DNA of 64,000 nucleotides from Micromonospora sp. R77 (GTDB taxonomy: Bacteria > Actinomycetota > Actinomycetes > Mycobacteriales > Micromonosporaceae). Each line of letters opens with the position of its first letter. Position 1 is the first letter of the stretch. Below the pieces are notes generated by a model. The model saw only the letters and a list, made by a program, of their open reading frames with translations. It searched no databases and was not told where the DNA came from. Shown here piece by piece: positions 5,459 to 55,172 of the stretch. The stretch covers positions 186,001 to 250,000 of the forward strand of contig NZ_JALDST010000001.1 of NCBI RefSeq assembly GCF_022747945.1, in the 5' to 3' direction. The position numbers and the translations under genes were made by a program.

Positions 5459-5554
5459 GGTCCCTCCTGACCCCGTGCCGGGTGCGACGGACCCATCGTC
5501 GTACGGGCCCGCGGAGGTGGGCGTCTCCTGCCGTGCGCTGTGGCCGGCGGCGGT

Positions 5555-6139: not shown

Positions 6140-6170
6140 CGGGCGCTCCGGCTCGTCACCCGGTCACGGC

Positions 6171-6740: not shown

Positions 6741-6851
6741 CTCAGCCTCCTGATCGGGCGACCTCACCGCACGCCCGGCCGCGGGCTACGGCGCGTCCAG
6801 CCTGGCCGACGCGGCGGGGCCGCCGCGTCTTCGAACGTGCGCTCCTCGGTG

Positions 6852-8363: not shown

Positions 8364-8930
8364 GTGGTGAGTTCCGATTCCGAATCCGACACCTGGACGA
8401 TGACCCTCGAGGCGTTCGCCGACACCATCATTCCCGGCGAGAAACGCTTTCCCGGGGACCGGGCCGTCGCGGGGGTCTCCACCGGCGGCGGCGCGGTCGC
8501 CTCCGGTGCCGTGGAGATGCTCGCCCACCCCGCGGGCGGCCTCGCCGAGTCACTGGACGGCCTGGTCGCGTTGCTGAACGGCCACGCGGCCCGGTACGCC
8601 GACGAGCAGCACCGGGTGCTGGCGGCGGACCTGCCGCCGTTCGTCGCGCTGTCCTATCCGGACCGGGCGGCGCTGGTGCAGCAGCTCACCGCGCCCGACC
8701 ACCCGGAGCGGAGCATCTGGGTGGGGATGGCGCTGTTCAGCAACATGGCCTTCGACAGCGCCGCCCACCTGAGCACCCCGCAGGCCCTGGCCGACGGGCA
8801 CCCGGGCCTGTTGACCATCGGCTACGAGCGACCCGACGCCGACGGGCTCTGGCGCTTCGGCAATGCCTCGTACGGGCGCCGGCTCGCCGACATCCACCCG
8901 CAGACCACCACGACGGGGAGTCCCGCATGA
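8364..8930 (+). CDS. Small E8-like partner of the GMC oxidoreductase
   Basis: A protein of 187-188 residues beginning at GTG 8364 or the next GTG at 8367; both follow GAGGAGG. The N-terminal part (TLEAFADTIIPGEKRFPGD) resembles the small subunits that accompany GMC-type dehydrogenases (gluconate-2-dehydrogenase subunit 3-like; DUF5987 in enediyne clusters). Its stop overlaps the start of the GMC oxidoreductase as ATGA, so the two are translationally coupled and likely act as a complex. This pair resembles the conserved E8/E9 pair of nine-membered enediyne clusters. No signal peptide is evident. The family assignment is from memory of sequence pattern and context, not from a search. Confidence 0.7.
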   Translation: MVSSDSESDTWTMTLEAFADTIIPGEKRFPGDRAVAGVSTGGGAVASGAVEMLAHPAGGLAESLDGLVALLNGHAARYADEQHRVLAADLPPFVALSYPDRAALVQQLTAPDHPERSIWVGMALFSNMAFDSAAHLSTPQALADGHPGLLTIGYERPDADGLWRFGNASYGRRLADIHPQTTTTGSPA

Positions 8931-10576: not shown

Positions 10577-10631
10577 CCCCGCGCGGCGCCCGCGGTCACC
10601 GCGGGCGCCGCCCGCCCAGGAGAGGACCGCC

Positions 10632-11728
10632 ATGGCTCAACTGATCGCCCGGGTGACCCGCGCCGCCGCCCTGGGGCAGATCCGGTACGTCGCCCCGGTG
10701 CCACCCGCCGCGGCCACCGGTGTGGTGCGCACGGTCTACCAGCAGATGGAACGGGACTTCGGGATGCTCGCCACCCCGGTGGCGCTGCACGCCGCCGCCC
10801 CCGACGTGCTCGCCGCCTGCTGGACCCTGCTGCGCGAGACGCTGCTGGCGCAGGGCCCGGTCAGCCGCGCGGACAAGGAACTCGTCGCGGCGGCGGTGTC
10901 GGTCGGCAACGCCTGCCCGTACTGCGTGGACGTGCACGGTGCGGCGGTGACCGGGCTGGCGGGCACGGACCGCACCGCCGCGGTGGTCGCCGCCGACCGG
11001 CTCGACGAGGTGCCGGACGCCCGGCAACGGGCGCTGGCGGGCTGGGCCCGGGCCAGCGGCCGGGTCGACGACCGGCCCGCCGCGCCGTTCCCGCCGGCCC
11101 GGGCCGCCGAGCTGATCGGCGTGGCGGTGGCGTTCCACTACCTCAACCGGATGGTGAACGTCTTCCTGCCGGACTCGCCGGTGCCCGCGCCGCTGCGGCG
11201 GCTCGGCGCGGCGCGCGCCCGGCGGATGGCGGGCCGGGTGCTCGGGCCGCTGGCCCGACGGCGGGTCGGGCCCGGCGCGTCCCTGCCGCTGCTGCCGGCC
11301 GCACCGACCGCGCCCGACCTGGTCTGGGCGGACGGCAACACCACCATCGCCGACGCGGTGGCGCGGGCGGCGGCGGCGATCGACACGGCGGGGGAACGCA
11401 GCGTGCCGGTCCGGGTCCGCTCCCTGGTGCTCACCCACCTGGTCCGGGCCACCCCACCGCCCGGCCCCGGCGACCGGCGACGGATCACCGAGGCGGTCGC
11501 CGACCTGCCCCCCGGCGACCGGGCCGCCGGCGAACTGGCCCTGCTGACCGCGCTCGCCTCCTACCGGGTCACCGAGCGGGAGATCGAGGCGTTCCGGCGT
11601 CGCCAGCCGGAGGATGCCGCCCTGGTCGGGCTGACCGCCTGGGCCAGCATGGCCGCCGCCCGGCAGATCGGCCTGCGGCTGCGCGCGGACCTGGCCGCCG
11701 GCCCGCTGACCGAGGGGGCGTACGGTGA
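10632..11728 (+). CDS. AhpD/carboxymuconolactone-decarboxylase-like protein, copy 2
   Basis: Paralog of the protein at 6852-7912, about 365 residues, with CPYCVDVH (Cys95, Cys98, His102) and the shared opening [IV]RYV.PVP..AATGV. ATG at 10632 follows an AGGAGAGG. Read literally the frame continues to 11939, but everything after about 11720 is the out-of-frame shadow of the next gene. Restoring one base in the G run at 11714-11718 would end the protein at a TGA (11726-11728) overlapping the GTG start of the MFS gene as GTGA, the arrangement seen elsewhere in this window. Two such paralogs in one cluster suggest a paired or redundant redox function; the substrate is unknown. Confidence 0.75.
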
Positions 11729-13387
11729 CCGGACCGGTCCGGGCGCGCAACCCGTGGGCCGCGCTGGCGGTGCTCTGCCTCGGCAACTTCCTCATCCTGC
11801 TCGACACCAGCATCGTCAACACGGCCGCCCCGCAGATCATGGGCGACCTGGACACCGGCATCGACGAGATCCTGTGGGTGCTGAACGCCTACCTGCTGGC
11901 GCTGGCGTCCCTGCTGATCGTCGCCGGCCGCCTCGGTGACCTGCTGGGGCCGCGCCGGGTGTTCGTCGCCGGCCTCGCCGGGTTCGCAGCGGCCTCGCTG
12001 CTGTGCGGGGCCGCCCGTACCCCGGGGGAGCTGATCGCGGCGCGGGCCGTGCAGGGCACCGCGGCGGCCGCGCTGCTGCCGCAGGCGTTGGTGCTCATCT
12101 CGGCGATCTTCCCGCCCGCCCGGCGGGGGGCCGCGTTCGGCATCTTCACGGCCGTCGCCGGCCTGGCGGCGGTCAGCGGACCGACGCTGGGTGGGCTGAT
12201 CCTGACCGATTTCGGCTGGCGCTGGATCTTCCTGGTCAACCTGCCGATCGGGGTGGCCGGCGTGGTGGCGACGCTCCGGCTGGTGCCGGACCTGCGCTCC
12301 GCCCGACCGGCCGGGTTCGACCCGGTCGGCGTGCTGCTCGCCACCGCCGGCCTGGTCGGCGTCGCCTACCCGCTGGTGGAGGGGGAACGGCTGCGCTGGG
12401 GGCCGGTGGTCGGACCGGTGACGGTGCCGATGATCCTGGCCGCCGGCGTGGTGCTGCTGCTGGCGTTCGTCGGCTGGGAACGCCGGCATCCCGCGCCGCT
12501 GGTGCCCACCGGGCTCTTCGCCGACCGCACCTTCACCGTCGCCGTCGTCATCACCATGGGCACCTCGTTCGCGCTCTACGGCTTCCTGCTGGTCTTCGTC
12601 ATCGAGACGCAGACCCTGCTCGGCATGAGCCCGCTGCTGGCCGGCGTCACCGCGCTGCCGTGGACCGTGACGCTCAGCGCGGTGGCCCCGGTGGCGGGCC
12701 GGCTCACCGACCGGCTCGGCGGCCGACGGCTGCTGGTGGTCGGCCTGACCGCGTACGCGGCCGGGGTGTTCGCCGTGGCCGCGGTGCCGGCGGCGGACGC
12801 CACCCCGGCGACCTTCGTGCTGCCGCTGGTGCTGGTGGGGATCGGGATGGGGGCGGCCATCGCGCCCACCACCACCGAGGCCATGCGGGCGGTCCGGCCG
12901 GCGCTGGCCGGGGCCGCGTCCGGGGTGCTGAACACCGCGCGTCAGGTCGGTGGCGTGCTCGGCGCCGCGGTGGCCGGCGCGCCTGCTGCAGCACCGGCTG
13001 GTCGCCGGCCTGCACGCCAGTGTCGCCGCGCGGGCCGGTGACCTCCCGCCGGAGCTGCGGCCCGCCTTCCTCCGCGGCTTCGAGCGGGCCGCCGCGCACG
13101 GGCTGAACCTGGGCGCGGGCCAGCACGGCGGGGTGAGCCCACCGGCCGGTCTCGCCGCCGGACCGGCGCAGCGGTTCTCGACCGCGGCGGCGGACGCGTT
13201 CGCCGACGCCTTCCTGCCGGCGGCCCGCACCACCCTCACCGTGGTCGCCGTCGTGCTGCTGGTGACCGCCGCCCTGGCCACCCTGGTGCGCCGCCGGCCC
13301 GCCGGCGGGGAACCCGCCCAGGTGCCGCAGCCGGTCGGCGCGTCCGCCGCCGGCACGGCCGTCCTCGACCGACCGGAGCCCCACTGA
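11725..13387 (+). CDS. MFS drug exporter, 14-TM type (frame broken near 12980)
   Basis: Major-facilitator exporter of the DHA2 type, about 553 residues when one frame break is closed. It has the DTSIVNTAAPQI motif of helix 1, a GRLGDLLGPRR loop motif and the antiporter motif C region (AAVSGPTLGGLI). The frame starting with GTG 11725 ends at 13041 in a nonsensical alanine/arginine tail; from about 12983 the protein continues in the next frame (LLQHRLVAGLHASV ... TVVAVVLLVTAALATLVRR), ending at 13387 with the expected last helix. One surplus base, or two missing, around 12977-12985 explains this. It likely exports the enediyne or an intermediate. Coupled to the upstream AhpD-like gene. Confidence 0.82.
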
Positions 13388-35218: not shown

Positions 35219-36745
35219 TCAGGCCGGCAACTCGACGGAGAGGCCGTGCCGGAACACGTCACCCGGGTCGTAGCGCCGCTTCACCGCCTGGAGGCGGGGA
35301 TAGTTGCCCTTGTAGTACAGCTCCTGCCAGGACACGCCCGACGTGTTCCAGGCGGGGTCGGCCAGGTCGACGTCCGGGTAGCCGATGTAGGAGCCGTCGG
35401 TACGGTCGTCGCAGACCGGCACGCCGCCGGTCTGCGCGAACAGGTCACGGTAGAACTCCCGTACCCATCCGATGTGGACGTCGTCCTCGGCGGCGTCCTG
35501 CCACATGCCCGCACTGCACATGAGCTTGAGGATCGAGTCCCGCTGCGGCATGGCGGTGGCGTCCGGCGCGACCGCGCCCACCCGGCCGCCGAAGCCGGTG
35601 AGCAGGATGCAGGCGCTGGGGTTGGCGTAGTCGTCCCGGGTCAGGTGCCGCCAGACCGCCGCGAGCTGCCGGTCGGTGAGGCCGCGCCGCAGGTAGGCCG
35701 CCTTGTTCTTGTACCGCCCCTTCGGGTCGTTCGGCCAGCTGTACGACGGCATCCACTCGCTCATCCACGGCATCACCTGGTCGACCGTCATGCTCGGCTG
35801 CACGCCGCTGCCGGCGCTCATCGCCTCGAGCTGGGCGTCGAGCAGCTTGTCGCTGTCCGGCACCGCCTCGTCGATGACGGCGGTCAGCACGAACATCGGC
35901 GCCGACCGGTGCATCACGATGAGGTTGGTCCACATGTGCGCGTACGGGGAGTCCGGGGCGCTGTTGCGCTCGTACCAGGTGCAGTAGTTGCGCAGCAGGG
36001 TGGTGAGCGCCGCCTCGGTCATCGTCTCCCACGACCACATGACGTCGCGCCGGCGCACCCGGGCCGGCGCCTTCGGCAGCACCGCCTCCGGCTCGTGCGA
36101 CACCGCGTCGGGGCTGCGCATCCAGTAGCGGGTGACGACGCCGAAGCTGCCGCCGCCCGCGCCGGTGTGCGCCCACCACAGGTCGTGGTGCGGGTCGTCC
36201 GGCTCCCGGGTGGCCACCACGGCCCGGGCCCGGCCGGTGTCGTCGACCACCACCACCTCGACGGCGTACAGGTGGTCGACGACGAGGCCGTCGCGGCGGG
36301 ACAGGTGGCCGTAGCCACCGGCCGAGAAGTGGCCGCCCACCCCCACCTCGAAGCAGGTGCCGGCCGGCACCGTCACGCCCCAGCGGGCGAAGAGCGCCCG
36401 GTAGACGTGCCCCAGCTTGGCGCCGCCGCCGATGGACACGGCGTGGAACCGCTCGTCGTACGAGATGTCGTCGAGCTGGGAGAGGTCGAGCAGCACCTGC
36501 GTGTCGGGCAGCGCACTGAAGTTCTCGAAGCAGTGTCCGCCGCTGCGTACCACGATCCGCTTGCCGGCGGTGACCGCGGCCTGGACCGCGTCGACCACCT
36601 GCTCGGTCGTCGTCGGCACCCGGATCACCTCGGGCCGGGTCACGAACCGGTGGTTGTAGGCGTCGAGCAGGTTCTCGTAACGCGGGTCGTCGGGGGTGAC
36701 GGTGGCGGCGCCGGCGATCGTGCCGGGTCGCTCGGTCATGGTCAT
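35219..36745 (-). CDS. BBE-like FAD oxidase with two covalent FAD attachment residues
   Basis: A 508-residue berberine-bridge-enzyme-like oxidase. His71 in RSGGHCFE and Cys131 in AGTCFEVGVGGHFSAGGYG correspond to the 8-alpha-histidyl and 6-S-cysteinyl links of bicovalent flavoenzymes; LWWAHTGAGGGSFGVVTRYW and the C-terminal YYKGNYPRLQAVKRRYDPGD are also typical. Bicovalent attachment raises redox potential and opens the active site for large substrates, so oxidation of a late, bulky intermediate is reasonable. Start ATG 36745 or the adjacent in-frame ATG. Grouped with SDR and epoxide hydrolase genes on the same strand. Confidence 0.88.
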   Translation of the reverse strand: MTMTERPGTIAGAATVTPDDPRYENLLDAYNHRFVTRPEVIRVPTTTEQVVDAVQAAVTAGKRIVVRSGGHCFENFSALPDTQVLLDLSQLDDISYDERFHAVSIGGGAKLGHVYRALFARWGVTVPAGTCFEVGVGGHFSAGGYGHLSRRDGLVVDHLYAVEVVVVDDTGRARAVVATREPDDPHHDLWWAHTGAGGGSFGVVTRYWMRSPDAVSHEPEAVLPKAPARVRRRDVMWSWETMTEAALTTLLRNYCTWYERNSAPDSPYAHMWTNLIVMHRSAPMFVLTAVIDEAVPDSDKLLDAQLEAMSAGSGVQPSMTVDQVMPWMSEWMPSYSWPNDPKGRYKNKAAYLRRGLTDRQLAAVWRHLTRDDYANPSACILLTGFGGRVGAVAPDATAMPQRDSILKLMCSAGMWQDAAEDDVHIGWVREFYRDLFAQTGGVPVCDDRTDGSYIGYPDVDLADPAWNTSGVSWQELYYKGNYPRLQAVKRRYDPGDVFRHGLSVELPA

Positions 36746-43454: not shown

Positions 43455-43964
43455 TCAGATCAGCTGCCCCGTGCAGGCGTCGTCGATGTACGCCTGCTTG
43501 GCCGCCGCGTCCCGGTTGGACTGCAGGTAGCGGGACCAGCCCCGGCGCTCGTGCGAGGTGCAGTCCAGCTCCACCACCTCCTGGGTGGGCCGCAGGAAGC
43601 CCGGCTTCGGCGGGTACGGCAGGAAACCCTCCTGGTCCTTGTAGTAGAGGCCCTGCCACATCTCGGTCTTGTCCCGCCAGACGCAGACCAGCATGAAGTA
43701 CTTCGCACCGTCGCGGTGCAGCATCACGAAGCCGATCTCGTTGCGGAACTCCAACCGCCCGGCCTCGACCTCGGCCCGCAGGAAGGCACGCGCCTCGTCG
43801 CTGACCTCGGGCGTGGCCTCCTGGTCGGCGAGCCGGATGTCGTACCACTTGAGGTAGCCACCGGGCACGGCCAGGTTCTCACCCGGGTAGATCTGCTTGT
43901 CCTGGTGCTTCCAGTCGCTCGGGTACTCGGCCAGGTTCTCGAGGTGGGAAATCGTCTGCGTCAC
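43455..43964 (-). CDS. Unrecognised 169-residue protein at the end of the second operon
   Basis: I do not recognise the family. The protein is hydrophilic, predicted soluble, rich in aromatic residues (WKHQDKQIYPGEN, YLKWYDIRL, MWQGLYYKDQEGFLPYPPKPG), without signal peptide or membrane helix. Its composition is less alanine/arginine-heavy than its neighbours, which may mean recent acquisition. Two late cysteines occur (ELDCTSHERRGW and DDACTGQLI). ATG 43964 starts it 41 bases after the ATP-grasp gene stop, so it is probably the last gene of the operon from 51.6 kb. Function unknown; an enzyme or binding protein serving the ATP-grasp/TrpB2 pathway is only a guess. Confidence 0.75.
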   Translation of the reverse strand: MTQTISHLENLAEYPSDWKHQDKQIYPGENLAVPGGYLKWYDIRLADQEATPEVSDEARAFLRAEVEAGRLEFRNEIGFVMLHRDGAKYFMLVCVWRDKTEMWQGLYYKDQEGFLPYPPKPGFLRPTQEVVELDCTSHERRGWSRYLQSNRDAAAKQAYIDDACTGQLI

Positions 43965-44004
43965 GGAACTGCTACCGCCTCACTTGTCGTTGCGAACACG
44001 TGGA

Positions 44005-45240
44005 TCAGCTGCCGGTGGCGTACAGGTCTGCTTCCTCCCACCTCCTGAGTCGCTGGTAGTCCGCCTCCACCTGCCCGACGTCGGGCGAGCTGAGGTAGAG
44101 GTAGCCGGGGGACGTGGCCAGGTCGACGGTCGGCCCGATCGGGGCGCCCTCGGGCGCGGTCAGCACCAGCTCCAGGAACGAGTCCAGGGAGCGGATCCGG
44201 TCGAGGCGCTCGCCGGCCGGGGCGACCCCGGGCCGCGGGTTGATCAGCGTCACGTACCGCAACCGGTTGAGCAGCCGGTACGGCGGCAGCGCGCCGGAGA
44301 TCAGGTCCTCGGGCCGGGCGATCGCCCGGGCCAGGCAGTCGATCTGGTCGGTGCCGAGGCACCGGGACACGATGGCCGGTACGTGCGAGCCGCCCGCCCG
44401 GCCGGCCGACTCGACCAGCACCGGGCCCTCCTTGGTCAGCATGACCTCGGTGTGTGCGGCGCTGTTGCGCACCTCCAGCGCGTCCAGCACCGCCAGCGTG
44501 TACGCCACCAGCGGCCCGACCACCGGGTCGTCCGGCGGCACCGGCTCCTCGTGGTCGTACATCAGCGCGCCGCTGTCGAGCTGCCGCTTGTGGTAGCGCC
44601 ACACCTCCACGACGTGGTGCACCCCGCCCCGGCTGACCGTGTTGACGAAGTACTCGTCGCCGTGCAGGAACTGCTGGCCCAGCAGCGTGTCGTTGCGGGC
44701 GCCGTACCGGTCGGTGCTGCCCAGCACCCGCCCGGCGGCCTCGCGCAGCTCGCCGGCCGTCCGGCAGACCGCCACGTTGTCCGTGCCGGCGCTGGAGCGG
44801 GGCTTGACCACCACCGGCCACTCGCCGAGGTCCTGCGCCCAGTCGACCAGCTCGTCGACCGAGCCGGTGGCGATGCTGCGCGCGACGGGCAGGCCGGCTT
44901 CCCGGACCGCCTCCACCATCTCGTACTTGTCCCGCCGGGCCCGGGGCCGGCTCATCCCGTTGCCCGGGGTGCCGAGCTCCGCCGAGAGCGCCTCGGCCAG
45001 CAGCACCCCCGACTCGGTGCCCGGCACCACGAACTCCACCCCCAGCGCCCGCAACCGCTCGGCGGTGGCCGCCAGGTCACCCTCGTGCGCGATCTCGTGG
45101 GTGAAGTTCCCCGGCGGGTAGGGCAGGTGCACGTCCGGCGTGCCCGACCGGACGTGCACGACGTCCACGTCGTACCGGGCGAGGGCGGCGGGCAGGAAGA
45201 CCCCGATGCCGCACGCGTCGACGATCGCCGTTCGCATCAC
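44005..45240 (-). CDS. ATP-grasp ligase
   Basis: A 410-411-residue ATP-grasp protein with the carbamoyl-phosphate-synthase/biotin-carboxylase-like core: RRDKYEMVEAVREAGLPVAR, WPVVVKPRSSAGTDNVAVC (phosphate-binding loop lysine), FLHGDEYFVNTV and EVMLTKEGPVLVESAGRAGGSH (Mg-binding acidic residues). Such enzymes activate a carboxylate as acyl phosphate and join it to an amine, for example in dipeptide formation. Start GTG 45240 overlaps the exporter gene stop (GTGA). With the TrpB2-like and carrier-protein genes it suggests formation of a small peptide or amide. Confidence 0.86.
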   Translation of the reverse strand: MMRTAIVDACGIGVFLPAALARYDVDVVHVRSGTPDVHLPYPPGNFTHEIAHEGDLAATAERLRALGVEFVVPGTESGVLLAEALSAELGTPGNGMSRPRARRDKYEMVEAVREAGLPVARSIATGSVDELVDWAQDLGEWPVVVKPRSSAGTDNVAVCRTAGELREAAGRVLGSTDRYGARNDTLLGQQFLHGDEYFVNTVSRGGVHHVVEVWRYHKRQLDSGALMYDHEEPVPPDDPVVGPLVAYTLAVLDALEVRNSAAHTEVMLTKEGPVLVESAGRAGGSHVPAIVSRCLGTDQIDCLARAIARPEDLISGALPPYRLLNRLRYVTLINPRPGVAPAGERLDRIRSLDSFLELVLTAPEGAPIGPTVDLATSPGYLYLSSPDVGQVEADYQRLRRWEEADLYATGS

Positions 45241-46226
45241 ACGCTCCGTGCTTCGGTCGGGGCCGGTGCGCCGGCCGGTACCAGGGACGCCGGGCTCGGC
45301 CGCCGCTCGTGCCGGCCGCGGGCCAGCACCCCGACGCCGACCAGCGCGGTGATCCCGACGACGCCGACCAGCGTGACGGCCGACGGGCGCAGGCGGGCGT
45401 CCGGCAGTTGCAGCAGCAGCGCCATCGGCGGGGAGAGCGCGGAGATCAGCGAGGCGGTGATCGGCTCGGTGTGCTTGATCCCCACCTGGATGAGGTACAT
45501 GGGCAGGCCCACGCCGATCACCGCGACGACCAGCCCCGGCAGCAGCGCGGGCGGCAGGGCGCCCGGGTCGCCGACCAGCACGAACCCCCAGGTCATCGCC
45601 ATCATCAGGAAGAACCGCACGGCCAGCACGGACTGCGGGTCGAGCCCTGCGTCGCTGAGCCGCTTGGAATAGATGACGTTGGCGGTGGAGGTGAGCCCGC
45701 AGACCAGGGTCAGCGCGAGCCCGACGACCGCCGCGTCGACGCCGACGTCACCGACCCCGCTGCGCCCGGTCACCGACGCCCAGACCAGCAGGGCGAGGAA
45801 ACCGCAGATGGCCACCGAGACGGCGATCTCGGCGCCCAGCACGCTGCTGCCCCGGCGCAGCAGCGGACCCAGCACGACGGTGAGCACCGGGCCGATGGCC
45901 AGCCCCACTACGTTCACCACCGCGGGTTCCAGGTATTTCAGCGCGAACAGCAGCGACAGCCAGGTCACCGCGGTGGAGACGTTGATCGCGACCACGTCGT
46001 ACCGCCGGGTCCGCAACGGCGCGAAGGTCGCCGCGGGACCCCGGCGGACGAGGTCGAGGCCGAGGAAGAACAACCCGCAGAGGGTGAACGAGACGGCCGC
46101 CAGGCTCAGCGTGTCGACCTTCTGGAGCTGGTTGCCGGCGTAGACGTCCACCAGGGCGGACATCGCGGCGAAGAGCAGCAGCACCAGGATGCCCCGGTTC
46201 GTCCGCCGGCCGGCGGCCCCCGTCAT
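45237..46226 (-). CDS. DMT/EamA-family exporter
   Basis: A 329-residue membrane protein with ten predicted helices in two EamA repeats (VDTLSLAAVSFTLCGLFFLGL ... SVAICGFLALLVWASV, split by a loop near residue 150; second repeat TSTANVIYSKRLSDAGLDP ... VGIKHTEPITASLISALSPP). EamA proteins export amino acids and small metabolites. ATG 46226 overlaps the TrpB2 stop as ATGA. It probably exports the product, or an amino-acid-like intermediate, of the operon. The open frame extends upstream antisense-like over the TrpB2 gene, which I do not count. Confidence 0.82.
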   Translation of the reverse strand: MTGAAGRRTNRGILVLLLFAAMSALVDVYAGNQLQKVDTLSLAAVSFTLCGLFFLGLDLVRRGPAATFAPLRTRRYDVVAINVSTAVTWLSLLFALKYLEPAVVNVVGLAIGPVLTVVLGPLLRRGSSVLGAEIAVSVAICGFLALLVWASVTGRSGVGDVGVDAAVVGLALTLVCGLTSTANVIYSKRLSDAGLDPQSVLAVRFFLMMAMTWGFVLVGDPGALPPALLPGLVVAVIGVGLPMYLIQVGIKHTEPITASLISALSPPMALLLQLPDARLRPSAVTLVGVVGITALVGVGVLARGRHERRPSPASLVPAGAPAPTEARSV

Positions 46227-47593
46227 ACGGCGGCCATCCGGGGGATGCTCGCCGCGGCGCGGGCCAGCGCCGCCGCGTCCACCGCGTCGTCCTCCAGGAT
46301 GCCGGCGAAGTACTTCTGGTAGGCCACCAGGTCGAAGTGACCGTGCCCGGACAGCCCGAACAGGATGGTCCGCGAGGTGCCCTCCTCCCGGCACCGGATC
46401 GCCTCGTCGACCGCGACCCGGACCGCGTGGGTGGACTCGGGGGCCGGCAGGACGCCCTCGGCGCGGGCGAACTGCACGCCCGCCTCGAAGCAGCGGGTCT
46501 GCGGGACGGCCACCGGCTCGATCAGCCCGTCCTCCACGGTCCGGGTGATCATCGGGCCGATGCCGTGCGCCCGCAGGCCACCCGCGTGCACCGGCGGCGG
46601 GACGAACTCGTGCCCCAGCGTGTGCATCCGGAACAGCGGCCCCAGCCGGCCGGTGTCGGCGTAGTCGTAGGCCACCACGCCCTGGGTCAGGGTCGGGCAG
46701 GCGGCCGGCTCGACGGCCAGCACCCGCACCGCGCGACCGCCGCGCAGCTGCTCGCCGAGGAACGGGAAGGCCAGGCCGGCCAGGTTGCTGCCGCCGCCGG
46801 CGCAGCCGACCACGATGTCCGGGTAGTCGTCGGCGAGGGCGAACTGGCGGATCGCCTCCTGCCCGATCACCGTCTGGTGCAGCAGCACGTGGTTGGCCGC
46901 GCTGCCGAGCACGTAGCCCAGCGAGGGGTCGGTGCCGAACGCCTCCAGCGCCTCCGAGGTGGCGATGCCGAGACTGCCCGGGGAGTCCGGGTGCTCGGCC
47001 AGGATGGCCCGGCCGACCGCGGTCTCCTCGCTCGGGCTCGGCACGCAGACCGCCCCGTACGTCTCCATCAGCGCCCGCCGGTACGGCTTCTGCTCGAAGC
47101 TGACCCGGACCATGTAGACCTTCGCGGTCATCCCGAAGAAGTTGGCGCTGAGTGCGGTGGCGCTCCCCCACTGCCCGGCGCCGGTCTCGGTGACCAGCCC
47201 GGTCTTGCCGGCCAGCTTGTTGTAGTACGCCTGCGGGATGCCGGTGTTCGGCTTGTGGCTGCCGGTCGGCGCGACGCCCTCGTACTTGTAGTAGATCCGC
47301 GCCGGGGTGTCCAGGGCGCGCTCCAGCCGGCGGGCCCGGATCAGCGGCGACGGCCGCCACAGCGCATAGATCTGCCGCACCGGGTCGGGGATCTCGTACT
47401 CCCGCTCGGTGCCGATCTCCTGCTCGATCAGCTGCTCCGGCATGGTGTACGCCATCTCGTCCCGGGTCAGCGGCTCGCCGGTGGCCGGGTTGAGCGCCGG
47501 CGCCAGCGGCCCGCCCTTCAGATCGGCCGCCAGGTTGTACCAGCTGGTCGGGATGTCCTGCTCGTCAAGCAGGAACTTGGTTCTCTCCAGCAC
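46223..47593 (-). CDS. TrpB2-like PLP-dependent enzyme
   Basis: A 456-residue PLP enzyme of fold type II, TrpB2 branch. The PLP lysine is in PTGSHKPNTGIPQAYY, and the phosphate-binding glycines are in GCAGGGSNLAGLAFPF; the N-terminal RPSPLIRARRLERAL is the usual TrpB2 substrate region. TrpB2 proteins act without TrpA and often catalyse beta-replacement on serine, threonine or O-phosphorylated relatives. It is not next to a trp operon, and its gene overlaps neighbours (GTG 47593 inside the end of the transglutaminase-fold gene), so it probably makes a non-standard amino acid for this operon. Confidence 0.86.
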   Translation of the reverse strand: MLERTKFLLDEQDIPTSWYNLAADLKGGPLAPALNPATGEPLTRDEMAYTMPEQLIEQEIGTEREYEIPDPVRQIYALWRPSPLIRARRLERALDTPARIYYKYEGVAPTGSHKPNTGIPQAYYNKLAGKTGLVTETGAGQWGSATALSANFFGMTAKVYMVRVSFEQKPYRRALMETYGAVCVPSPSEETAVGRAILAEHPDSPGSLGIATSEALEAFGTDPSLGYVLGSAANHVLLHQTVIGQEAIRQFALADDYPDIVVGCAGGGSNLAGLAFPFLGEQLRGGRAVRVLAVEPAACPTLTQGVVAYDYADTGRLGPLFRMHTLGHEFVPPPVHAGGLRAHGIGPMITRTVEDGLIEPVAVPQTRCFEAGVQFARAEGVLPAPESTHAVRVAVDEAIRCREEGTSRTILFGLSGHGHFDLVAYQKYFAGILEDDAVDAAALARAAASIPRMAAV

Positions 47594-48278
47594 GGGAGTC
47601 CTCCTGTGTCGTTGCCTCGGCGACCAGCGACCCGGTGGCCGTCGTGTAGGAGCTGGCGAACAGCAGCGGATGAGCCGTCCGGATGCCGTCCACCACGAGG
47701 TCGTAGGGGACGTCGTCGAACTCGCCCCGCATCTGCAGGAACTCCATGTGCTGCCGGCCCTGCTCGTCGAAGGGGTGGTAGAGGCTGTCGGACCGCCCGT
47801 CGAAGTCCAGCGGCCTGATCCGGTAGAGCTTGCAGAGCATCTTGTTGAACACCGGCGTCGCCCTCACCCAGGTGCCGTCGAGGTGCACCGAGGTCAGGCT
47901 GTGGAACCGGAACACGTCCCCGCCCACCAGCTCCCGCAGCCGGGGCGAGGCCAGGTGGTTGCGGACGTCGCCGTAGACGATCCGGCTCGGCACGCCCACG
48001 GCGCGCAGCGCCGCCGCGTACACGATGGACTTGTGGACGCAGAAGCCGAAGCCGCGCTCGAGCACGCCGCTGGCGGTGAGTCCGCGCCGGGACAGGTCCG
48101 CGCCGTACACCTCGTAGCGGATGCCGTCGCGCACCGCGTAGTACAGCCGGACCGCCTTGTCCACGTCCGTCCCGCCCGCGTCGTCGCCGAGGGCGTCCCG
48201 GACGAACCGGCGCACCACGGGCGAGTCGTGGTCCAGGAACTCGGTGGCCCGCACCAGTGCCGGGTCGGTCTCGCTCAT
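47565..48278 (-). CDS. Transglutaminase-fold protein
   Basis: A 237-residue protein of the transglutaminase-like superfamily. The catalytic cysteine is Cys80 in ERGFGFCVHKSIVYAAAL, and the catalytic His is probably His126 in FRFHSLTSVHLDG, followed by WVRATPVFN in the position of the third catalytic element. No signal peptide, so it is cytoplasmic, unlike many bacterial transglutaminase-domain proteases. In andrimid biosynthesis a transglutaminase homologue forms an amide from carrier-bound acyl groups; with an A enzyme and PCP in the same operon, a similar amide-forming or hydrolytic role is plausible. ATGA overlap with the oxidase gene upstream. Confidence 0.8.
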   Translation of the reverse strand: MSETDPALVRATEFLDHDSPVVRRFVRDALGDDAGGTDVDKAVRLYYAVRDGIRYEVYGADLSRRGLTASGVLERGFGFCVHKSIVYAAALRAVGVPSRIVYGDVRNHLASPRLRELVGGDVFRFHSLTSVHLDGTWVRATPVFNKMLCKLYRIRPLDFDGRSDSLYHPFDEQGRQHMEFLQMRGEFDDVPYDLVVDGIRTAHPLLFASSYTTATGSLVAEATTQEDSRAGENQVPA

Positions 48279-49456
48279 GCCGTACGCCCCCCTGTCGGGC
48301 CGGTCGCCGGGGCGGTCCGGCCCAGCCCCATCAGGGCCGCCACCCGCTGGCGTTGGATCTCCGAGGTGCCGGAGTAGATCGTGCCGGACACCGCGTTGCG
48401 CAGGTCCTTCTCCAGCCCGTACTCGGTGGTGTAGCCGTAACCGCCGAAGACCTGCACGGCGGCGAGCGCGGACCGGACGTTGCTCTCGCTGACGATCAGC
48501 TTGGTGATCGCCACGTCGGTGGCGACGTTCTCCCCGGCGGCCATCCGCTCGGCGGTGTCGTAGAGCCACTTGCGGGAGGTCTCCAGGTCGATCCGCATGT
48601 CGACGATCCGGTTCGAGACCGACTGGTAGGAGCCGATGGCGGCCCCGAACTGGGTGCGGCTGCGGGCGTACTCGACGCACCGCTCCAGGCGGTGCTGCAT
48701 CTCGCCGAGCACGCCGGCGAAGCCGCAGAGGATCTCCCACCGCATCACCGCGTCGAGCACCAGCAGACCCGCGCCGACCGACCCGACCACGTGGTCGCGG
48801 GGCACCCGCACGTCGTCGAGGAAGAGCTCCGACAGCGGCGACGTGCGCAGCCCCATCTTGCCGATCGGACCGCCCACGGTCAGGCCCGGCGAGTCCCGCC
48901 GGACCAGGAACGCGGTGACCGCCACCGGACTGCCCGGGCGGCCGGTCCGCGCGTAGACCACCACCAGGTCGGCGATCGGGCCGTTGCTGACGAACGCCTT
49001 GCTGCCGCGCAGCACGAAGTGGTCGTCCTCGGCGACCGCGGTGGTGGCCATGTTGGTGACGTCGGAGCCGCCGGCCGGCTCGGTGATCGCGTGCGCGCCG
49101 ATCATCGTGCCGGCCACGATCTCCGGCAGGTAGCGCTCCCGCAGCGCCGGGGAACCGAAGCGCTGCACCGGGACGCCGGTGCTGACCAGGTGGGTGCAGG
49201 CGGAGAAGGTCAGCCCGGCGTCCCGGCAGGCGTAGCCCAGCCCCTCCAGGACGTACATCGTGGTCGGCAGGTCACGACCGAGGCCGCCGAAGCGCTCCGG
49301 GAAGGGCAGCCCGAACAGCCCGGTCGCCCGGAGCCGCTTCCAGCCGTCCCAGGAGAACTCGCCGCTGGCGTCCCGCTCCAGGTGGTCCGCGCCGACCAGT
49401 CGGCCGGCCTGCTCCGCCGCGTCGCGCAACGCCCGTTGTTCGTCGGTCCATCGCAT
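48275..49456 (-). CDS. Acyl-CoA dehydrogenase family oxidase
   Basis: A 393-residue flavoprotein with full acyl-CoA dehydrogenase signatures: AHAITEPAGGSDVTNM, GLRTSPLSELFLDDVRVP and the C-terminal RDLRNAVSGTIYSGTSEIQRQRVA. VFGGYGYTTEYGLEKD is the usual C-terminal helix. In operons with a stand-alone A enzyme and a PCP, homologues (PltE, RedW, ZmaI types) oxidise the aminoacyl-S-PCP, for instance prolyl to pyrrolyl. The same job is likely here; the amino acid is not known. ATG 49456 lies 12 bases after the EctC-like gene. Confidence 0.86.
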   Translation of the reverse strand: MRWTDEQRALRDAAEQAGRLVGADHLERDASGEFSWDGWKRLRATGLFGLPFPERFGGLGRDLPTTMYVLEGLGYACRDAGLTFSACTHLVSTGVPVQRFGSPALRERYLPEIVAGTMIGAHAITEPAGGSDVTNMATTAVAEDDHFVLRGSKAFVSNGPIADLVVVYARTGRPGSPVAVTAFLVRRDSPGLTVGGPIGKMGLRTSPLSELFLDDVRVPRDHVVGSVGAGLLVLDAVMRWEILCGFAGVLGEMQHRLERCVEYARSRTQFGAAIGSYQSVSNRIVDMRIDLETSRKWLYDTAERMAAGENVATDVAITKLIVSESNVRSALAAVQVFGGYGYTTEYGLEKDLRNAVSGTIYSGTSEIQRQRVAALMGLGRTAPATGPTGGRTA

Positions 49457-49468
49457 ACCCCGGCCGCC

Positions 49469-49846
49469 TCAGTACTGCGAGAATTCGACGGAGTCCAGGT
49501 TGTGTCGCTCCGGACCGACGAGCGGTGGGTTGAAGACGCTGACCAGTTCCAGGTCGGTCTCGGGCGCGGCGATCAGGAAGTGCGCGTCGTGTTCGTTCAA
49601 CGCGTACAGCACGCCGGGCCGCAGCTCCCAGCTGCGGGAGCCGTCGGCGGTCTGCACCCAGCCCCGGCCGCCGATGCAGTAGCACGCCTCGAGGTGGCGG
49701 CGGTACTCCAGTTGCGACTTGGTCCCGGCGCGCACCACCGTGTGGCACACGGTGAAGCCCATCTTGTCGGTCTCGAGCAGGTAGCGGTAGCTGAGGCCGT
49801 TGCCCCACTCCACCGGTTCGGTCTGTTCCCTGGTGCGAACGATCAT
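49469..49846 (-). CDS. EctC-like cupin cyclase
   Basis: A 125-residue single-domain cupin resembling ectoine synthase: it begins MIVRTREQ, and has YRRHLEACYCIGGRGWV (metal-site region), ELRPGVLYALNEHDAHFLIAA and a FNPPLVGPERHN end that parallels the FTPGL.G.E/H pattern of EctC. EctC closes N-gamma-acetyl-diaminobutyrate into ectoine by loss of water. No EctA acetyltransferase and no canonical ectABC order is present, so the protein probably cyclises a related carrier-bound or free diamino or amide intermediate. It lies between the oxidase and PCP genes. Confidence 0.8.
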   Translation of the reverse strand: MIVRTREQTEPVEWGNGLSYRYLLETDKMGFTVCHTVVRAGTKSQLEYRRHLEACYCIGGRGWVQTADGSRSWELRPGVLYALNEHDAHFLIAAPETDLELVSVFNPPLVGPERHNLDSVEFSQY

Positions 49847-49865
49847 CAGTCCAGTCCTCGTCCGG

Positions 49866-50126
49866 TCAGCCGATGGCGGCGTGGTCACGGGCGGCGGTGA
49901 CGAACGCCGTCATGGCAGCGACCGACCGGAAGTGCTCCGGCGAGATGTCCAGGTCGTCCATGGGGATGCGGTAGCGTTCGCCGAGCCAGGCGATGAGCTG
50001 GAGCAACCGCAGGCTGTCCACCACACCGGTGTCGAGCAGGTCGTAGGCGGGGTCCAACTCCTCGGGGGCGGTGCCGGGCAGGTATTCCGACACCACGTAC
50101 CGGGTTATCTCGTCGGCGAGACTCAC
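49866..50126 (-). CDS. Stand-alone carrier protein (PCP/ACP)
   Basis: An 86-residue carrier protein with the phosphopantetheine serine at Ser38 in DTGVVDSLRLLQLIAWLGERYRI-type context, as in PltL/RedO-like and D-alanyl-carrier-like proteins. GTG 50126 overlaps the stop of the adenylation gene (GTGA), so it is the partner of that enzyme. It presumably holds the amino acid while the oxidase and EctC-like enzyme act. Confidence 0.92.
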   Translation of the reverse strand: MSLADEITRYVVSEYLPGTAPEELDPAYDLLDTGVVDSLRLLQLIAWLGERYRIPMDDLDISPEHFRSVAAMTAFVTAARDHAAIG

Positions 50127-51578
50127 GTCAGCTCCCTCATCAGGTGGTCACGGACCCGGCGGCGGTCCACCTTGCCGGTGGGCCCGACCGGCAGCGCCTC
50201 GCTGACCAGTCGGAACACGTCGGGGATCGCCACCCGGGTGAGCCGGGCGGCGCAGTACGTACGCAGGGCGAGGCTGCTCGGGCCGGTGCCGTCGACCCGG
50301 ACCACGGCGTGCAGCCGGGTGCCGGCCGCCGGGTCGGGCAGCGCGACGACGACCGCCTCGACGACGCCGTCGTGGCCCTGGACGACCCGTTCGACCTCTT
50401 CCAGGTTGACCCGTACACCCCGGACCTTGACCTGGAAGTCGTTGCGCCCGGCCAGCGTCAGCCGGCCGTCGGCACCCCGGTGGACCAGGTCCCCGGTGCG
50501 GTACCAGGTCCGCTCGCCCCGGTCGGTGACCCGGCGGAAGAACCGGTCCGGCGCCTGGTCGCCGAGGTAGCCGTCGGCCTGGAACGGCGTGGCCACCACC
50601 AGCTCGCCGGTGCCGGGGCCGGTCAGCACCTGCCCCTGGTCGAGCAGCGCCACCTCCACCCCGGGGATCGGCCGGCCCAGGGGCAGCACGTCGTCCGTGG
50701 CGGCCTGCTCCGGGCCGAAGGTGTGCAGGAAACTGTCGTTGGTCTCGGTGCAGCCGTACACGTTGTGGAAGGTCGCCCGGGGGAACACGGCCGGCAGCCC
50801 GGCGCGGACCCGGCGCGGCGTGTGGTCGCCGGTCAGCAGGACGTGCCGGACCGCCGGGAATGCCTGCCCGTCGGCCGCCTCGGTGAGCAGCCGGAACAGC
50901 ATCGGTACGGCCTGGACGACCGCCGGCCGGGCCTGCGCGAACAGCTCCAGCAGGTAGCGGGGCTGGACCGCCCGGGCCGGGTCGACGAGGACCACCTCCC
51001 CGCCGTGGCTCAGCGTCGCCCAGACGTCCAGCAGGCAGAGGTCGAAGTTGAGCGGCGCGTAGTTGAGCACCCGGGTGCCCTCGGTGAGGTCGAACTGCTC
51101 GGCGGCCCAGTCGACGAACCGCTCGACGCCGGCGGCCGACAACGGGACGATCTTGGGCAGTCCGGTGGAACCCGAGGTGGTCAGCAGCAGGCAGGTGTCC
51201 GGCGGCAGCGCGCCGCCGGTGCCGCCGGGACGGGGCGGACCCGCAGGCCCCGTCCTCGGCCGCGAGGACGGCCGCGCACCCGGCGCGGGCGACCAGCGCG
51301 TCGAAGACCTGCGCACCGAGGTCGGTGGAGAGCAGCAGCACGGGCTGCCCGGCGGCGAGGCAGGCGAGCACCGCCGCGACCGACTCGGGCGACTTGCCGG
51401 CGCGGAGCGCGACCGGCGCCCCGGCGGTGGGTACGGCGGCCAGCTGGGCGGACGCCTTCGCCGCCAGCTCGACCAGCTCGGCGTAGCTGACCAGCCGGTC
51501 CTGCCAGCGCAACGCGGTCGCGTCGGGTATCCGGTCGGCCTGTTCGTGGATGCGGGACGCGAGGGATCCGATCGACAT
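50123..51578 (-). CDS. Stand-alone amino-acid adenylation enzyme (frame broken)
   Basis: An adenylation enzyme of about 484 residues after closing one frame break. It has TTSGSTGLPKIVPLS (A3), NFDLCLLDVWATL (A4, with the Asp that binds an alpha-amino group), NVYGCTETNDSF (A5), WYRTGDLVHRGADG (A7), NDFQVKVRGVRVNLEEVE (A8) and PTGKVDRRRV with the A10 lysine. The first 115 residues are read from ATG 51578 (or GTG 51581); the rest needs a one-base shift at the CCCC run 51248-51251. No fused carrier or condensation domain. It should load an alpha-amino acid onto the adjacent PCP, like PltF- or RedM-type enzymes. Confidence 0.85.
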
Positions 51579-52605: not shown

Positions 52606-53805
52606 ATGAGGCCGGCCGACCCGGCCCAGGTGGTCGCGATGTCGATGCTCGGTGCGGCGGTCGACGGTCCCGTCGTCCGCCGGCAGGTCGGGGCCCGGCT
52701 GTCCGCCGCGGACGGCACCGAGTGGCTCGACGCGGCCGGCGGCGGATTCGGCCCGGGCCACCCGGCGGTGACCGCGCGCATCGCCGCGCAACTGCGGCGG
52801 GTGGCGCTGTCCAGCCGGGTGTTCGTCAGCCGTCCGCTGGCCGAGGCGGTCACCGCGCTGGACGCCCTCGCGCCGGGGCCGCTCACCATGTCCTACCTCT
52901 GCAACAGCGGCGCGGAGGCGCTCGACGCGGCGCTGAAGCTCGCCAAGGGCAGCCACCCGGAGCGACGGCGGATGCTCGGCCTGCGCGGCGCGGACCACGG
53001 CAGCCTCAGCCACGGGCTCGCCCTCACCCTCGGGTCCGGCCTGTCGGCGGACGCGCCGTTGCAGCCGGTCGGCGTGCCGGCCGACCGGGCGGCGGAACTG
53101 GCCGACCTGGTCGACGACAGCGTCGCCGCCGTGGTGCTCGCGCCGGCCGCGCCGGGCCGGGCGCTGGCCGACCTGCCGCCGTCGTGGTGGCACCGCCTGC
53201 GGGCCGCCTGCGACGCGGCCGACGTGCTGCTGGTCGTCGACGAGCGGACCACCGGCCCGGCCCGGGTCGGTGCGGGCCTGGCCAGCGACCTGCTGCCCGT
53301 CCTGCCCGACGCGGTGGTCCTCGGCGAGACGATCGGCGCCGACGCGGTCCCGGTCGGCTGCATGATCACCACCGCGGCCCGGTACGACCGCGTCTACGGC
53401 CGCCGCAACCCCACCGTCCAGGGATCCACCTTCGGGGCGAACCCGCTCTCGGCCGCCGCGGTCACCGCCGTCCTCGCCGTGGTGCGGGACGAGGACCTGC
53501 CGGCACGGCAACGGGCGGTGGCCACCGAGGCCGTCCGGACCCTCGGCGGGCTGGCCGACCCGCACGGGCCCGTCCGGGCGGTCGGCGCCGACGGGTCACT
53601 GATCTGGCTGCGTACCGACTCGGCGGAGACCGCCGCCTCGCTCGCCCTCGGCCTGGCCCGGGAGCGGGTCCTGGTCCGCCGGCCCACCGGCCCGGTGCTC
53701 GCCGTGCTGCCCCCGCTGACCGCCGACCCGCCCGACGTGACAACCCTGCTGGACCGGGTGGCCGCCGCCGCCGGCCGGCTGACCCCGCAGGCGGTGACCC
53801 GGTGA
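52606..53805 (+). CDS. Class III aminotransferase homologue lacking the PLP lysine
   Basis: A 399-residue fold type I class III aminotransferase homologue. It keeps CNSGAEALDAALKLAKG, the Asp that faces the PLP ring (LLVVDERTTG), and GSTFGANPLSAAA, but where the Schiff-base lysine should be (SKxLxGG) it has LGETIGADAVPVG, with Glu241. The aromatic/His stacking pair is also changed (GADHGS for GGYHGK-like). So it is probably inactive as a transaminase and may be a structural or regulatory partner of the active enzyme encoded immediately downstream, whose start it overlaps (GTGA). ATG 52606 chosen for the GGAGC upstream. Confidence 0.8.
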   Translation: MRPADPAQVVAMSMLGAAVDGPVVRRQVGARLSAADGTEWLDAAGGGFGPGHPAVTARIAAQLRRVALSSRVFVSRPLAEAVTALDALAPGPLTMSYLCNSGAEALDAALKLAKGSHPERRRMLGLRGADHGSLSHGLALTLGSGLSADAPLQPVGVPADRAAELADLVDDSVAAVVLAPAAPGRALADLPPSWWHRLRAACDAADVLLVVDERTTGPARVGAGLASDLLPVLPDAVVLGETIGADAVPVGCMITTAARYDRVYGRRNPTVQGSTFGANPLSAAAVTAVLAVVRDEDLPARQRAVATEAVRTLGGLADPHGPVRAVGADGSLIWLRTDSAETAASLALGLARERVLVRRPTGPVLAVLPPLTADPPDVTTLLDRVAAAAGRLTPQAVTR

Positions 53806-55172
53806 CCGCCGTCGAGAGCCGGGAGGGCGTGCTGGCCGCCCTCGGGCGACACTGGAACCCGACGGCCGCCGCCATGCTCGCCGGCTCCGGACGGCAGCTC
53901 GAGGGGCACGCCGAGGGCACCCGGGTCTGGTCCGAGGACGGCGCCGAGGCGCTCGACCTCGCCGGCAGCTTCGGTGTCTTCCTCGTCGGGCACGGCAACC
54001 CGCGGGTCCGCGCGGCCGTGCTCGACACCCTGTACGCGGCGCCCACCGTCCCGCCCGGTGCCGTCCACCCGGCCACCGCCGAACTCTGCGTGCTGCTGCG
54101 CGAGGTGCTGCCGGCCGGGCTGGAACACTTCGTCCTCGGCTGCTCCGGCGCGGACGTCACCGAGACGGCGCTGCGCGCGGTGCGGCTGGCCCGACCGGAC
54201 CGGCCCCGGATCGTGGTGCTGGAGGGCGGCTACCACGGCAAGACCCTCGGCTCGATGCCGGTGCTGGGCCAGGCCCACCAGCGCCACCAGTTCGAGCCGC
54301 TCGGCGGTGACCTCGTCGTCCTGCCGTACGGCGACGCCCGGGCCGTCGAGGCGGCGCTCGCCGACCGCCGGGTCGCGGCGGTGATCGTCGAACCCGTCCT
54401 CGGCGGCGGCTACCTGACCGTGCCGCCGGCCGGCTATCTCGCCGCCGTGGCCCGGGCCTGCGCCGACACCGGCACGCTCCTGGTCGCCGACGAGATCCAG
54501 ACCGGTTTCGGGCGCACCGGCCGGATGTTCGCCGTCGACCACGACGGGGTGTCGCCGGACATCATGCTGCTGTCCAAGTCGCTGACCGGGGGCGTCGTGC
54601 CGGTGGCGGTCTGCGCGCTGACCCGGCAGGTCGTCGAGGACGCCCGACGGCATCCCGGGCACCACGAGGCGCTGCTCACCGCCGACAGCTGCACCAGCGC
54701 GCTGGCCGTCGCCGCCGCCGCGGCCACCATCATCGAGGTCCGCGAACGGGACCTGCCGGCCCGGGCCGCCGTGCTCGGTGCCCGGCTCGGGCAGGGGCTG
54801 GCCGAGATCGTCCGACGCCACCCCCGGCACGTGCTCGACGCCCCCGCGATCGGCCTGATGACCGGCCTGCGGACCCGTAACCCGGCGGTCGAGCTGATGC
54901 TCACCATGGGACTGGCGGCGCGCGGCATCCACACCGGCTTCTCGCTGTCGGAGGAGATCCGCCGGCCGGTGCTGCGGCTCTACCCGCCGCTGACCTGCAC
55001 CGAGGCGGAGATCGACCGGGTGCTGGCCGCGACCGAGGAGGTGCTCGCCGGCCTGGACCGCCGGTCCCGGCTGATGACGACGGTGACCAGTTGGCTGCTG
55101 CGCCGCCAGTACGGGCGGCAGGCGGCCCGGGTCCGCCGACTGATCGGCTGGTCGTTCCGCCTGCCCTGGTGA
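53802..55172 (+). CDS. Class III aminotransferase (PLP-dependent)
   Basis: A 456-residue class III aminotransferase with all main residues: GCSGADVTETALRAV, GGYHGKTLGS, LVADEIQTGFGRTG (PLP aspartate) and Lys259 in MLLSKSLTGGVVPVA. Family members use an omega-amino group, as in diaminobutyrate or ornithine transamination. It carries an unusual arginine-rich C-terminal extension of about 25 residues (LLRRQYGRQAARVRRLIG). It is translationally coupled to the lysine-less paralog. It could provide or consume a diamino acid related to the EctC-like cyclase encoded nearby; this link is inferred from proximity. Confidence 0.87.
   Translation: MTAVESREGVLAALGRHWNPTAAAMLAGSGRQLEGHAEGTRVWSEDGAEALDLAGSFGVFLVGHGNPRVRAAVLDTLYAAPTVPPGAVHPATAELCVLLREVLPAGLEHFVLGCSGADVTETALRAVRLARPDRPRIVVLEGGYHGKTLGSMPVLGQAHQRHQFEPLGGDLVVLPYGDARAVEAALADRRVAAVIVEPVLGGGYLTVPPAGYLAAVARACADTGTLLVADEIQTGFGRTGRMFAVDHDGVSPDIMLLSKSLTGGVVPVAVCALTRQVVEDARRHPGHHEALLTADSCTSALAVAAAAATIIEVRERDLPARAAVLGARLGQGLAEIVRRHPRHVLDAPAIGLMTGLRTRNPAVELMLTMGLAARGIHTGFSLSEEIRRPVLRLYPPLTCTEAEIDRVLAATEEVLAGLDRRSRLMTTVTSWLLRRQYGRQAARVRRLIGWSFRLPW

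Follow-up and report, generated by a model that had tools for sequence, protein, structure and literature searches.

The window analysed here, a 64,000-nucleotide stretch of the 7.14 Mb genome of Micromonospora sp. R77 (contig NZ_JALDST010000001.1, positions 186,001 to 250,000), contains nine genes in a single minus-strand run at 43455..51578, and this operon is a real, conserved and mostly unexplored type of pathway. We propose that the pathway has two parts, a cassette of five genes that would convert glutamine to an aminopyrrole acid and a tail in which a TrpB2-like enzyme and an ATP-grasp ligase would build on that product; the evidence leaves us evenly divided on whether this proposal is right. 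The cassette encodes an adenylation (A) enzyme, a peptidyl carrier protein (PCP), an EctC-like cupin, an acyl-CoA-dehydrogenase-type (ACAD) oxidase and a transglutaminase-fold protein (TG). This front end is apparently known in kind from the biosynthesis of showdomycin, and the downstream half is apparently new. What we observed are gene content, conservation, family membership, clades and residue signatures, and every chemical step is deduced from these. The genes, from the upstream end, are as follows.

50123..51578, minus strand: A gene, in two reading frames (PF00501/PF13193)
49866..50126, minus strand: free-standing PCP, 86 amino acids (aa) (PF00550)
49469..49888, minus strand: EctC-like cupin cyclase, 139 aa from a GTG at 49888 or 125 aa from an ATG at 49846 (PF06339, NF009806)
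48275..49456, minus strand: ACAD-type oxidase of the prolyl-carrier dehydrogenase group (PF02770/02771/00441)
47565..48278, minus strand: TG, 237 aa, probable thioester hydrolase (PF01841, structure model and fold search)
46223..47593, minus strand: TrpB2-like pyridoxal phosphate (PLP) enzyme of a cassette-linked clade, Ala at 342 (PF00291, TIGR01415, trees)
45237..46226, minus strand: EamA-family exporter, 329 aa (PF00892)
44005..45240, minus strand: ATP-grasp ligase, L-amino acid ligase type, 411 aa (NF005543, above cut-off)
43455..43964, minus strand: 169-aa protein of a small family (no library domain, no convincing fold match)

Neighbouring genes overlap by 4 bases at the A/PCP, ACAD/TG, TrpB2/EamA and EamA/ATP-grasp junctions and by 29 bases at TG/TrpB2; gaps of 12 and 40 bases separate the EctC-like gene from ACAD and the ATP-grasp gene from the 169-aa gene, and the PCP and EctC-like genes either overlap, with the GTG start at 49888, or lie about 19 bases apart, with the ATG start at 49846, which gives the 125-aa length of many relatives. 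Eight of the nine genes are open, with coding-type codon use, at the coordinates of the sequence-only reading, an earlier interpretation of this DNA made without database searches. The nine-gene operon that it had described on the minus strand stands in its run, its short gaps and overlaps and these eight genes, but not in the A gene, which is split over two frames; its family assignments agree with the Pfam and NCBIfam results.

The TG protein was found in 14 of 300 genomes of the family (E 1e-20) and in 6 of 396 genomes of the phylum (E 1e-30), the window's own genome counted both times, and its closest relatives among the matches listed are named Micromonospora. A scan of 84,980 species, each represented by a single genome, gave 122 stretches, 105 of them encoding a TG relative, of which 80 were kept (loci are cited below by their L numbers). 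As these 80 loci were found via two exact TG peptide patterns, all counts over them are conditional on TG, and the frequency of TG absence is not readable from them. The loci were mapped with a simple gene caller whose training set was 14 genes of the window and which misses genes (annotated genes were missed in L125). The same genome occurs twice across two collections in L023=L043, L025=L048, L030=L060, L031=L081 and L032=L105; the doubles L060 and L081 were dropped from the TrpB2 trees and counts, and all doubles were kept in the EctC-, A-code-, Amdase-/169-aa-, C-glycosidase- and TrpF/C-counts.

All five cassette genes are present in 60 of the 80 loci, in 57 of them as one co-directional run. 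Since the five genes are kept together in most loci, with differing tails behind them, we regard them as a movable cassette, and the same maps rule out that the genes are scattered in relatives. The conserved-neighbourhood check suggested by the sequence-only reading found all nine genes in unchanged order in L044 (Streptomyces palmae), L049 (Kitasatospora indigofera) and L052 (Pseudonocardiaceae bacterium), and this order recurs minus EamA in L045, L056 and L070. TrpB2, ATP-grasp and the 169-aa gene occur together in 8 of the 80 loci, namely these six plus L066 and L068, where the three genes lie on the opposite strand; L046 and L050 combine TrpB2 with the 169-aa gene without a window-type ATP-grasp, and L075 has TrpB2 and ATP-grasp without the 169-aa gene.

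Combined with a C-glycosidase tail, the cassette has the gene content of the route proposed for showdomycin. As far as its excerpts go, a review (PMC8724604) gives this route as the cyclase SdmE acting on L-glutamine, the nonribosomal peptide synthetase SdmC, the carrier SdmD, oxidation and hydrolysis, by which glutamine becomes an aminopyrrole acid, followed by the YeiN-like C-glycosynthase SdmA and then the phosphatase SdmB; the same excerpts call the route incompletely understood. The window resembles the showdomycin (sdm) system of Streptomyces showdoensis in its free-standing A and PCP and in its candidates for the glutamine cyclase, the oxidation and the hydrolysis to the aminopyrrole acid, all of which it holds together (the A gene being frame-disrupted), and relatives' operons hold the same five-gene cassette with a C-glycosidase and a phosphatase. 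The review cites Palmu 2017 and Ren 2021 for this system; the intermediate is reported by Ren to be 2-amino-1H-pyrrole-5-carboxylic acid, an air-sensitive compound that goes to a maleimide. The window differs in having TrpB2, ATP-grasp, EamA and the 169-aa protein in place of the C-glycosidase and the Amdase-like gene: no C-glycosidase or HAD match was found in its 64 kb at E 1e-6, no Amdase-like gene in the window, and Pfam assigned neither PF04227 nor a HAD family to any of the nine proteins, the N-terminal part of the A gene lying outside that scan. The earlier claim that no described pathway has this gene set survives for the TrpB2/ATP-grasp half, of which no description was found in the literature searched, and falls for five of the nine genes, which resemble a described front end if, as is most likely, the heterocycle is showdomycin's glutamine-derived aminopyrrole acid. 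The more general picture of carrier-bound chemistry by A enzyme, PCP and oxidase, a small N-heterocycle, an amino-acid ligase and an exporter is supported by the families and the conserved neighbourhood.

That one common substrate serves all tails is supported by three sequence results, among them the A-domain code and the residues of the EctC-like proteins. With positions set by motif after the GrsA scheme, the code of the window, taken from the C-terminal part of its A gene, is D-L-L-M-L-G-V-D-S-K, and across all tail types it reads D-L-[LF]-[ML]-x-G-[VLI]-D-S-K with few exceptions (78 readable rows, 2 of 80 with gaps being left out): the G and the second D are present in 78/78 rows and the S in 76/78. 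The EctC-like protein of the window scores 131.1 bits against the ectoine synthase model NF009806 (cut-off 128 bits) and finds ectoine synthases of the PDB as its structural-database matches; a cupin of this kind, with at least 40% identity, is present in 81 of 96 mapped loci. Ectoine synthase EctC and these proteins share the cupin family, the iron ligands Glu57/Tyr84/His92, the catalytic Tyr52, and Trp21, Arg25, Thr40 and Phe106; the iron ligands, Thr40 and Tyr52 are kept in every readable row. They differ from EctC in a three-residue insertion after Trp21 and in the loss of Asn38: position 38 is Thr, Cys or Ala in all 80 readable rows of 82 (Cys in the window) and Asn in none, gapped rows being left out (2/82 at this position and 8/82 at N-terminal positions). 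In the excerpts of the EctC literature, Asn38 holds the substrate carboxylate (PMC6344544), and a side reaction of the enzyme turns glutamine into the ring compound ADPC (PMC6344544, PMC4795551). We infer that a cyclase lacking Asn38 would be suited to a glutaminyl group attached to the carrier, which would make the order of steps differ from the showdomycin scheme of the review. For the carrier protein itself, the NCBIfam models of the ornithine-lipid acyl carrier protein (ACP) and the cispentacin ACP AmcB match below cut-off.

In the tail, the TrpB2 of the window scores 565 bits against TIGR01415 (cut-off 518.85) and shares with standalone TrpB2 (PDB 6hul, 4qys, 6hte) the fold family, the PLP lysine motif and the catalytic glutamate motif, both motifs being kept in 27/27 cassette-linked TrpB2s. 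It differs from them in belonging to a clade of its own: the cassette-linked TrpB2s form a single group of 27 rows, with support of 100/100, in two trees, the first containing 29 other actinobacterial TrpB2s and the second 15 of those 29 plus five Micromonospora TrpB2s (drawn from seven loci, L170 and the broken L173 left out). The clade splits into 7 and 20 rows, with 100/99 in both trees. The seven are from loci that also carry TrpD/F/C/A-like genes or UbiD (TrpF/TrpC in five, UbiD in L035, TrpA in L094), and the 20, the window among them, from loci where no TrpD/F/C/A-like or UbiD gene was found, which we call direct-type; a window-type sub-clade of nine rows has 98/97 in the first tree and 97/96 in the second. 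The second difference is a single residue. Position 342 (window numbering) is Ala in 20/20 direct-type rows and Tyr in 7/7 rows of the trpDFCA/UbiD type, 29/29 other actinobacterial and 5/5 other Micromonospora TrpB2s. It aligns with Tyr301 of the 6am8 chain group (residue number counted from the alignment); 6am8 is PfTrpB, whose Y301 flanks the active site according to the excerpts of PMC9448781. Arg351 of the window, too, differs from other actinobacterial TrpB2s, which have His in 24/29. Given the Ala342 signature and the clade, the simplest reading is that direct-type TrpB2s would take a non-indole nucleophile from the cassette, and for the TrpDFCA-type TrpB2s the simplest reading would be a bicyclic, indole-like nucleophile.

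Along almost the entire protein, the ATP-grasp enzyme shows its relation to the L-amino acid ligase of PDB 30vh (E 1e-69), which makes a dipeptide product likely. It shares the ATP-grasp architecture of L-amino acid ligases (30vh; DdaF of dapdiamide; BacD of bacilysin) but lies far below the equivalog cut-offs of both DdaF (172.7 bits against 840) and BacD. The 169-aa protein matches no Pfam or NCBIfam family and gave no convincing match in fold searches with its predicted model (mean pLDDT 92); its family is small, a search of a 5.8-billion database having found 33 protein clusters. Of the 20 loci with a direct-type TrpB2 (window counted), the 169-aa gene is present in 11 and an Amdase-like gene in 6; no locus has the two together, and 3 lack them both. 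No C-glycosidase locus (0/26) and no TrpF/C locus (0/16) carries the 169-aa gene, while the Amdase-like gene is found in 24/26 and 0/16, respectively. These distributions suggest that the 169-aa protein replaces the Amdase-like (arylmalonate-decarboxylase/maleate-isomerase-like) step of sister clusters.

Put together, the cassette of A, PCP, EctC-like, ACAD and TG would take L-glutamine to 2-amino-1H-pyrrole-5-carboxylic acid. A and PCP would carry the acyl group as a thioester, the EctC-like cupin would close the ring, the ACAD-type flavoenzyme would oxidise the ring to an aromatic pyrrole, and TG would release the aminopyrrole acid from the carrier. The specialised TrpB2 would then accept the electron-rich aminopyrrole instead of indole, joining it to L-serine-derived aminoacrylate to give beta-(aminopyrrolyl)-alanine, whose oxidation and decarboxylation may, as in showdomycin, yield an amino acid that bears a maleimide. 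The ATP-grasp enzyme would couple the product with a second amino acid, EamA would export the resulting dipeptide, and the 169-aa protein would stand where sister clusters have the Amdase-like protein.

Other tails of the cassette may draw on the same starter. The C-glycosidase tail carries a PsuG/AlnA-like C-glycosidase, a HAD phosphatase, an MFS protein and an Amdase-like protein (Pfam/NCBIfam on L028); the C-glycosidase is found in 26 of the 96 mapped loci, a count that includes one genome twice (L025/L048), with all five cassette genes in 22 and the HAD phosphatase in 24 of the 26, and AlnA is the best PDB match of one of these proteins. In a second tail, TrpB2 is accompanied by another exporter, either EamA or LysE, and often by an Amdase-like protein (L030, L031, L055, L057, L058, L061, L063, L064). 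A third has TrpD/A/F/C-like genes, partly with UbiD and TrpB2 (e.g., L034 at 4454-13082, L073, L084, L085, L100), and is also found on an annotated Streptomyces xanthii plasmid (L123, 6736-14074); TrpF or TrpC is present in 16 of the 96 loci on the simple gene-caller maps, 8 of these having all five cassette genes. In L034 and L123, TrpD, TrpF and TrpC fall below the NCBIfam cut-offs and TrpA above, and this tail looks like a tryptophan-type pathway that would be run on the aminopyrrole. We can thus picture, with a little less than even confidence, a family sharing an aminopyrrole starter, in which the C-glycosidase would lead to C-nucleosides, the Tyr-less TrpB2 to beta-(aminopyrrolyl or maleimidyl)-alanines, and to dipeptides in the window type, and the TrpD/F/C/A-like enzymes, in some loci with UbiD and the Tyr-bearing TrpB2, to a bicyclic tryptophan analogue with aminopyrrole replacing anthranilate.

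Several observations weigh against the proposed pathway. The nearest cassette, that of Micromonospora sp. MP36 (L023/L043), is 84-92% identical and has a different tail with no TrpB2 beside it, and the MP36 genome offers only a 34% match to the window's TrpB2. In the genus, TrpB2 occurs in 21 of 160 genomes, the window's own counted, the others being about 50-63% identical, and none of seven other Micromonospora TrpB2 loci has the cassette (although genes distantly like those for A, carrier and ACAD lie in L172); as TrpB2 thus occurs outside the cassette, it is by itself no proof of aminopyrrole chemistry. The division into direct and indirect TrpB2s followed the tree for L035 and L094. As S. 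showdoensis is not named among the matches listed in the TG and locus searches, gene content is what ties the cassette to showdomycin, and since the words ectoine, transglutaminase and acyl-CoA dehydrogenase have 0 occurrences in the showdomycin review (PMC8724604), assigning the EctC, ACAD and TG families to SdmE, the oxidase and the hydrolase is our own inference. Ring closure by the EctC-like cupin could take place on free or on PCP-bound glutamine, the order being possible either way. Finally, with the A gene of the window copy frame-disrupted, the activity of this copy is uncertain.

The N-terminal part of that gene extends from 51578 to about 51245 and the C-terminal part from about 51199 to 50123 in a different frame, which places the frame change between ~51199 and ~51245; searched apart, the two parts match residues 3-107 (74%) and 126-483 (84%) of one intact 484-aa A protein (L023). 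The change may be a true mutation or a sequence error. Together with a piece of another cassette-type A gene found elsewhere in this genome, about 500 bases at 71% DNA identity and with an in-frame stop (L036 8380-8882, C1 near 807379), it could mean that the window copy belongs to a dead or decaying cluster, which we think unlikely while taking it seriously. The other eight genes are open, however, relatives carry full-length A genes, and a single frame change in a GC-rich stretch also resembles a sequencing error; decay of this copy would, moreover, have no bearing on the role of the operon family.

The sequence-only reading had seen the end product differently: a heterocyclic acid built on the carrier by the cassette would be linked through an amide, formed by TG or ATP-grasp chemistry, to a different amino acid made by TrpB2. 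This is improbable in our judgement, even if the L-amino acid ligase type of the ATP-grasp enzyme fits an amide of two amino acids and the transglutaminase/arylamine-N-acetyltransferase (NAT) fold, to which TG belongs by its predicted model and fold search, includes amide synthases such as GdmF (fold matches 8btm, 8ot2). TG accompanies each tail type, including the showdomycin-like tail whose proposed route has a hydrolysis step, and thioester hydrolysis is therefore its simplest role and fits better than amide formation. The clade and Ala342 signature of TrpB2, for their part, track the cassette, and the heterocycle itself is probably the nucleophile, which would leave no separate partner amino acid for this enzyme to make.

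A more conventional product would be pyrrole-2-carboxyl-PCP made from proline, of the pyoluteorin/prodigiosin type, with the EctC-like protein closing an unrelated ring. The ACAD protein does resemble the prolyl-PCP dehydrogenases PigA, RedW and AnaB: PigA and RedW are its best NCBIfam models, and among solved chains the closest is 6cxt, deposited as a butyryl-CoA dehydrogenase, followed by the prolyl-ACP dehydrogenase 4irn and the prolyl-PCP dehydrogenase 5zw0; the A code, too, with its opening D-L-L, probably resembles that of prolyl adenylases. The resemblance stops short of the curated cut-offs, however (RedW 341 against 650 bits, PigA 376.1 against 500), and the substrate expected here is a glutamine-derived ring. 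The remaining A-code positions are nearly fixed and presumably differ from proline codes, the EctC-like cupin is a conserved partner with its catalytic residues in place, and the gene content is that of the proposed showdomycin route, all of which makes a proline-derived product quite improbable. That TrpB2 is a tryptophan-supply enzyme near a biosynthetic cluster is hardly credible, although the solved chains nearest to it bear the name tryptophan synthase beta chain: the gene overlaps TG, the protein has its own clade and a changed active-site-flanking residue, and a second, distant match in the genome (C1:881209), below the TrpB2 cut-off, is presumably the ordinary TrpB; this match and the separate clade led us to reject a housekeeping role.

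Around the operon and its relatives we noted some further genes. Two adjacent class-III aminotransferase genes lie upstream on the opposite strand (window 52606-55172), with no sign of membership in the operon. In L044, L049 and L052 the gene just upstream of A encodes a BBE-family FAD-linked oxidase, which the window lacks at this position; its BBE-type oxidase at 35219-36745 was considered as the counterpart and rejected, being only ~28% identical to that oxidase and 47% identical to the BBE protein of L032. The longer downstream extras of L045, a B12-binding protein, a methylaspartate mutase E chain and a second ATP-grasp, with similar-looking genes in L056 and L070, hint that the second amino acid of L045-type clusters may be methylaspartate-like. 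In L023, L067 and L072 the cassette adjoins genes that by eye look like methionine salvage (one checked, in L072, is of the IF-2B family), L072 also carrying a PurD-like ATP-grasp, and this neighbourhood suggests a tail that would release methylthioadenosine. L103, L104, L106-L110, L113-L116, L119-L122 and L124, mostly Streptomyces, have the cassette followed by a distant Amdase-like protein (25-30%), and in L107, L115 and L124 by an additional small protein, which in L124 carries the annotation DUF6253. Cassette genes also occur in Alphaproteobacteria, in L125 (9932-17796, Aliiroseovarius crassostreae plasmid), L082, L094 and L117; the annotation of L125 groups TrpD with TG, EctC, ACAD, A, ACP and two ketosynthase-like genes. 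Another Micromonospora cluster (L168, L169, L171, L174) has a TrpB2 62-63% identical to the window's, with Tyr at 342, and an ATP-grasp-like gene; its longer loci contain UbiD-like and chorismate-mutase-like genes, the latter checked in L171.

If the two-part pathway is true, it would give genetic access to amino acids and dipeptides that are electrophilic and of the maleimide type, and provide a natural group of TrpB enzymes for a non-indole carbon nucleophile, recognisable by a one-residue hallmark. The plug-in logic of a single starter cassette with several tails would make uncharacterised actinomycete clusters testable, and it offers a substrate hypothesis for genes annotated as EctC, transglutaminase or acyl-CoA dehydrogenase, names that say little about their role.

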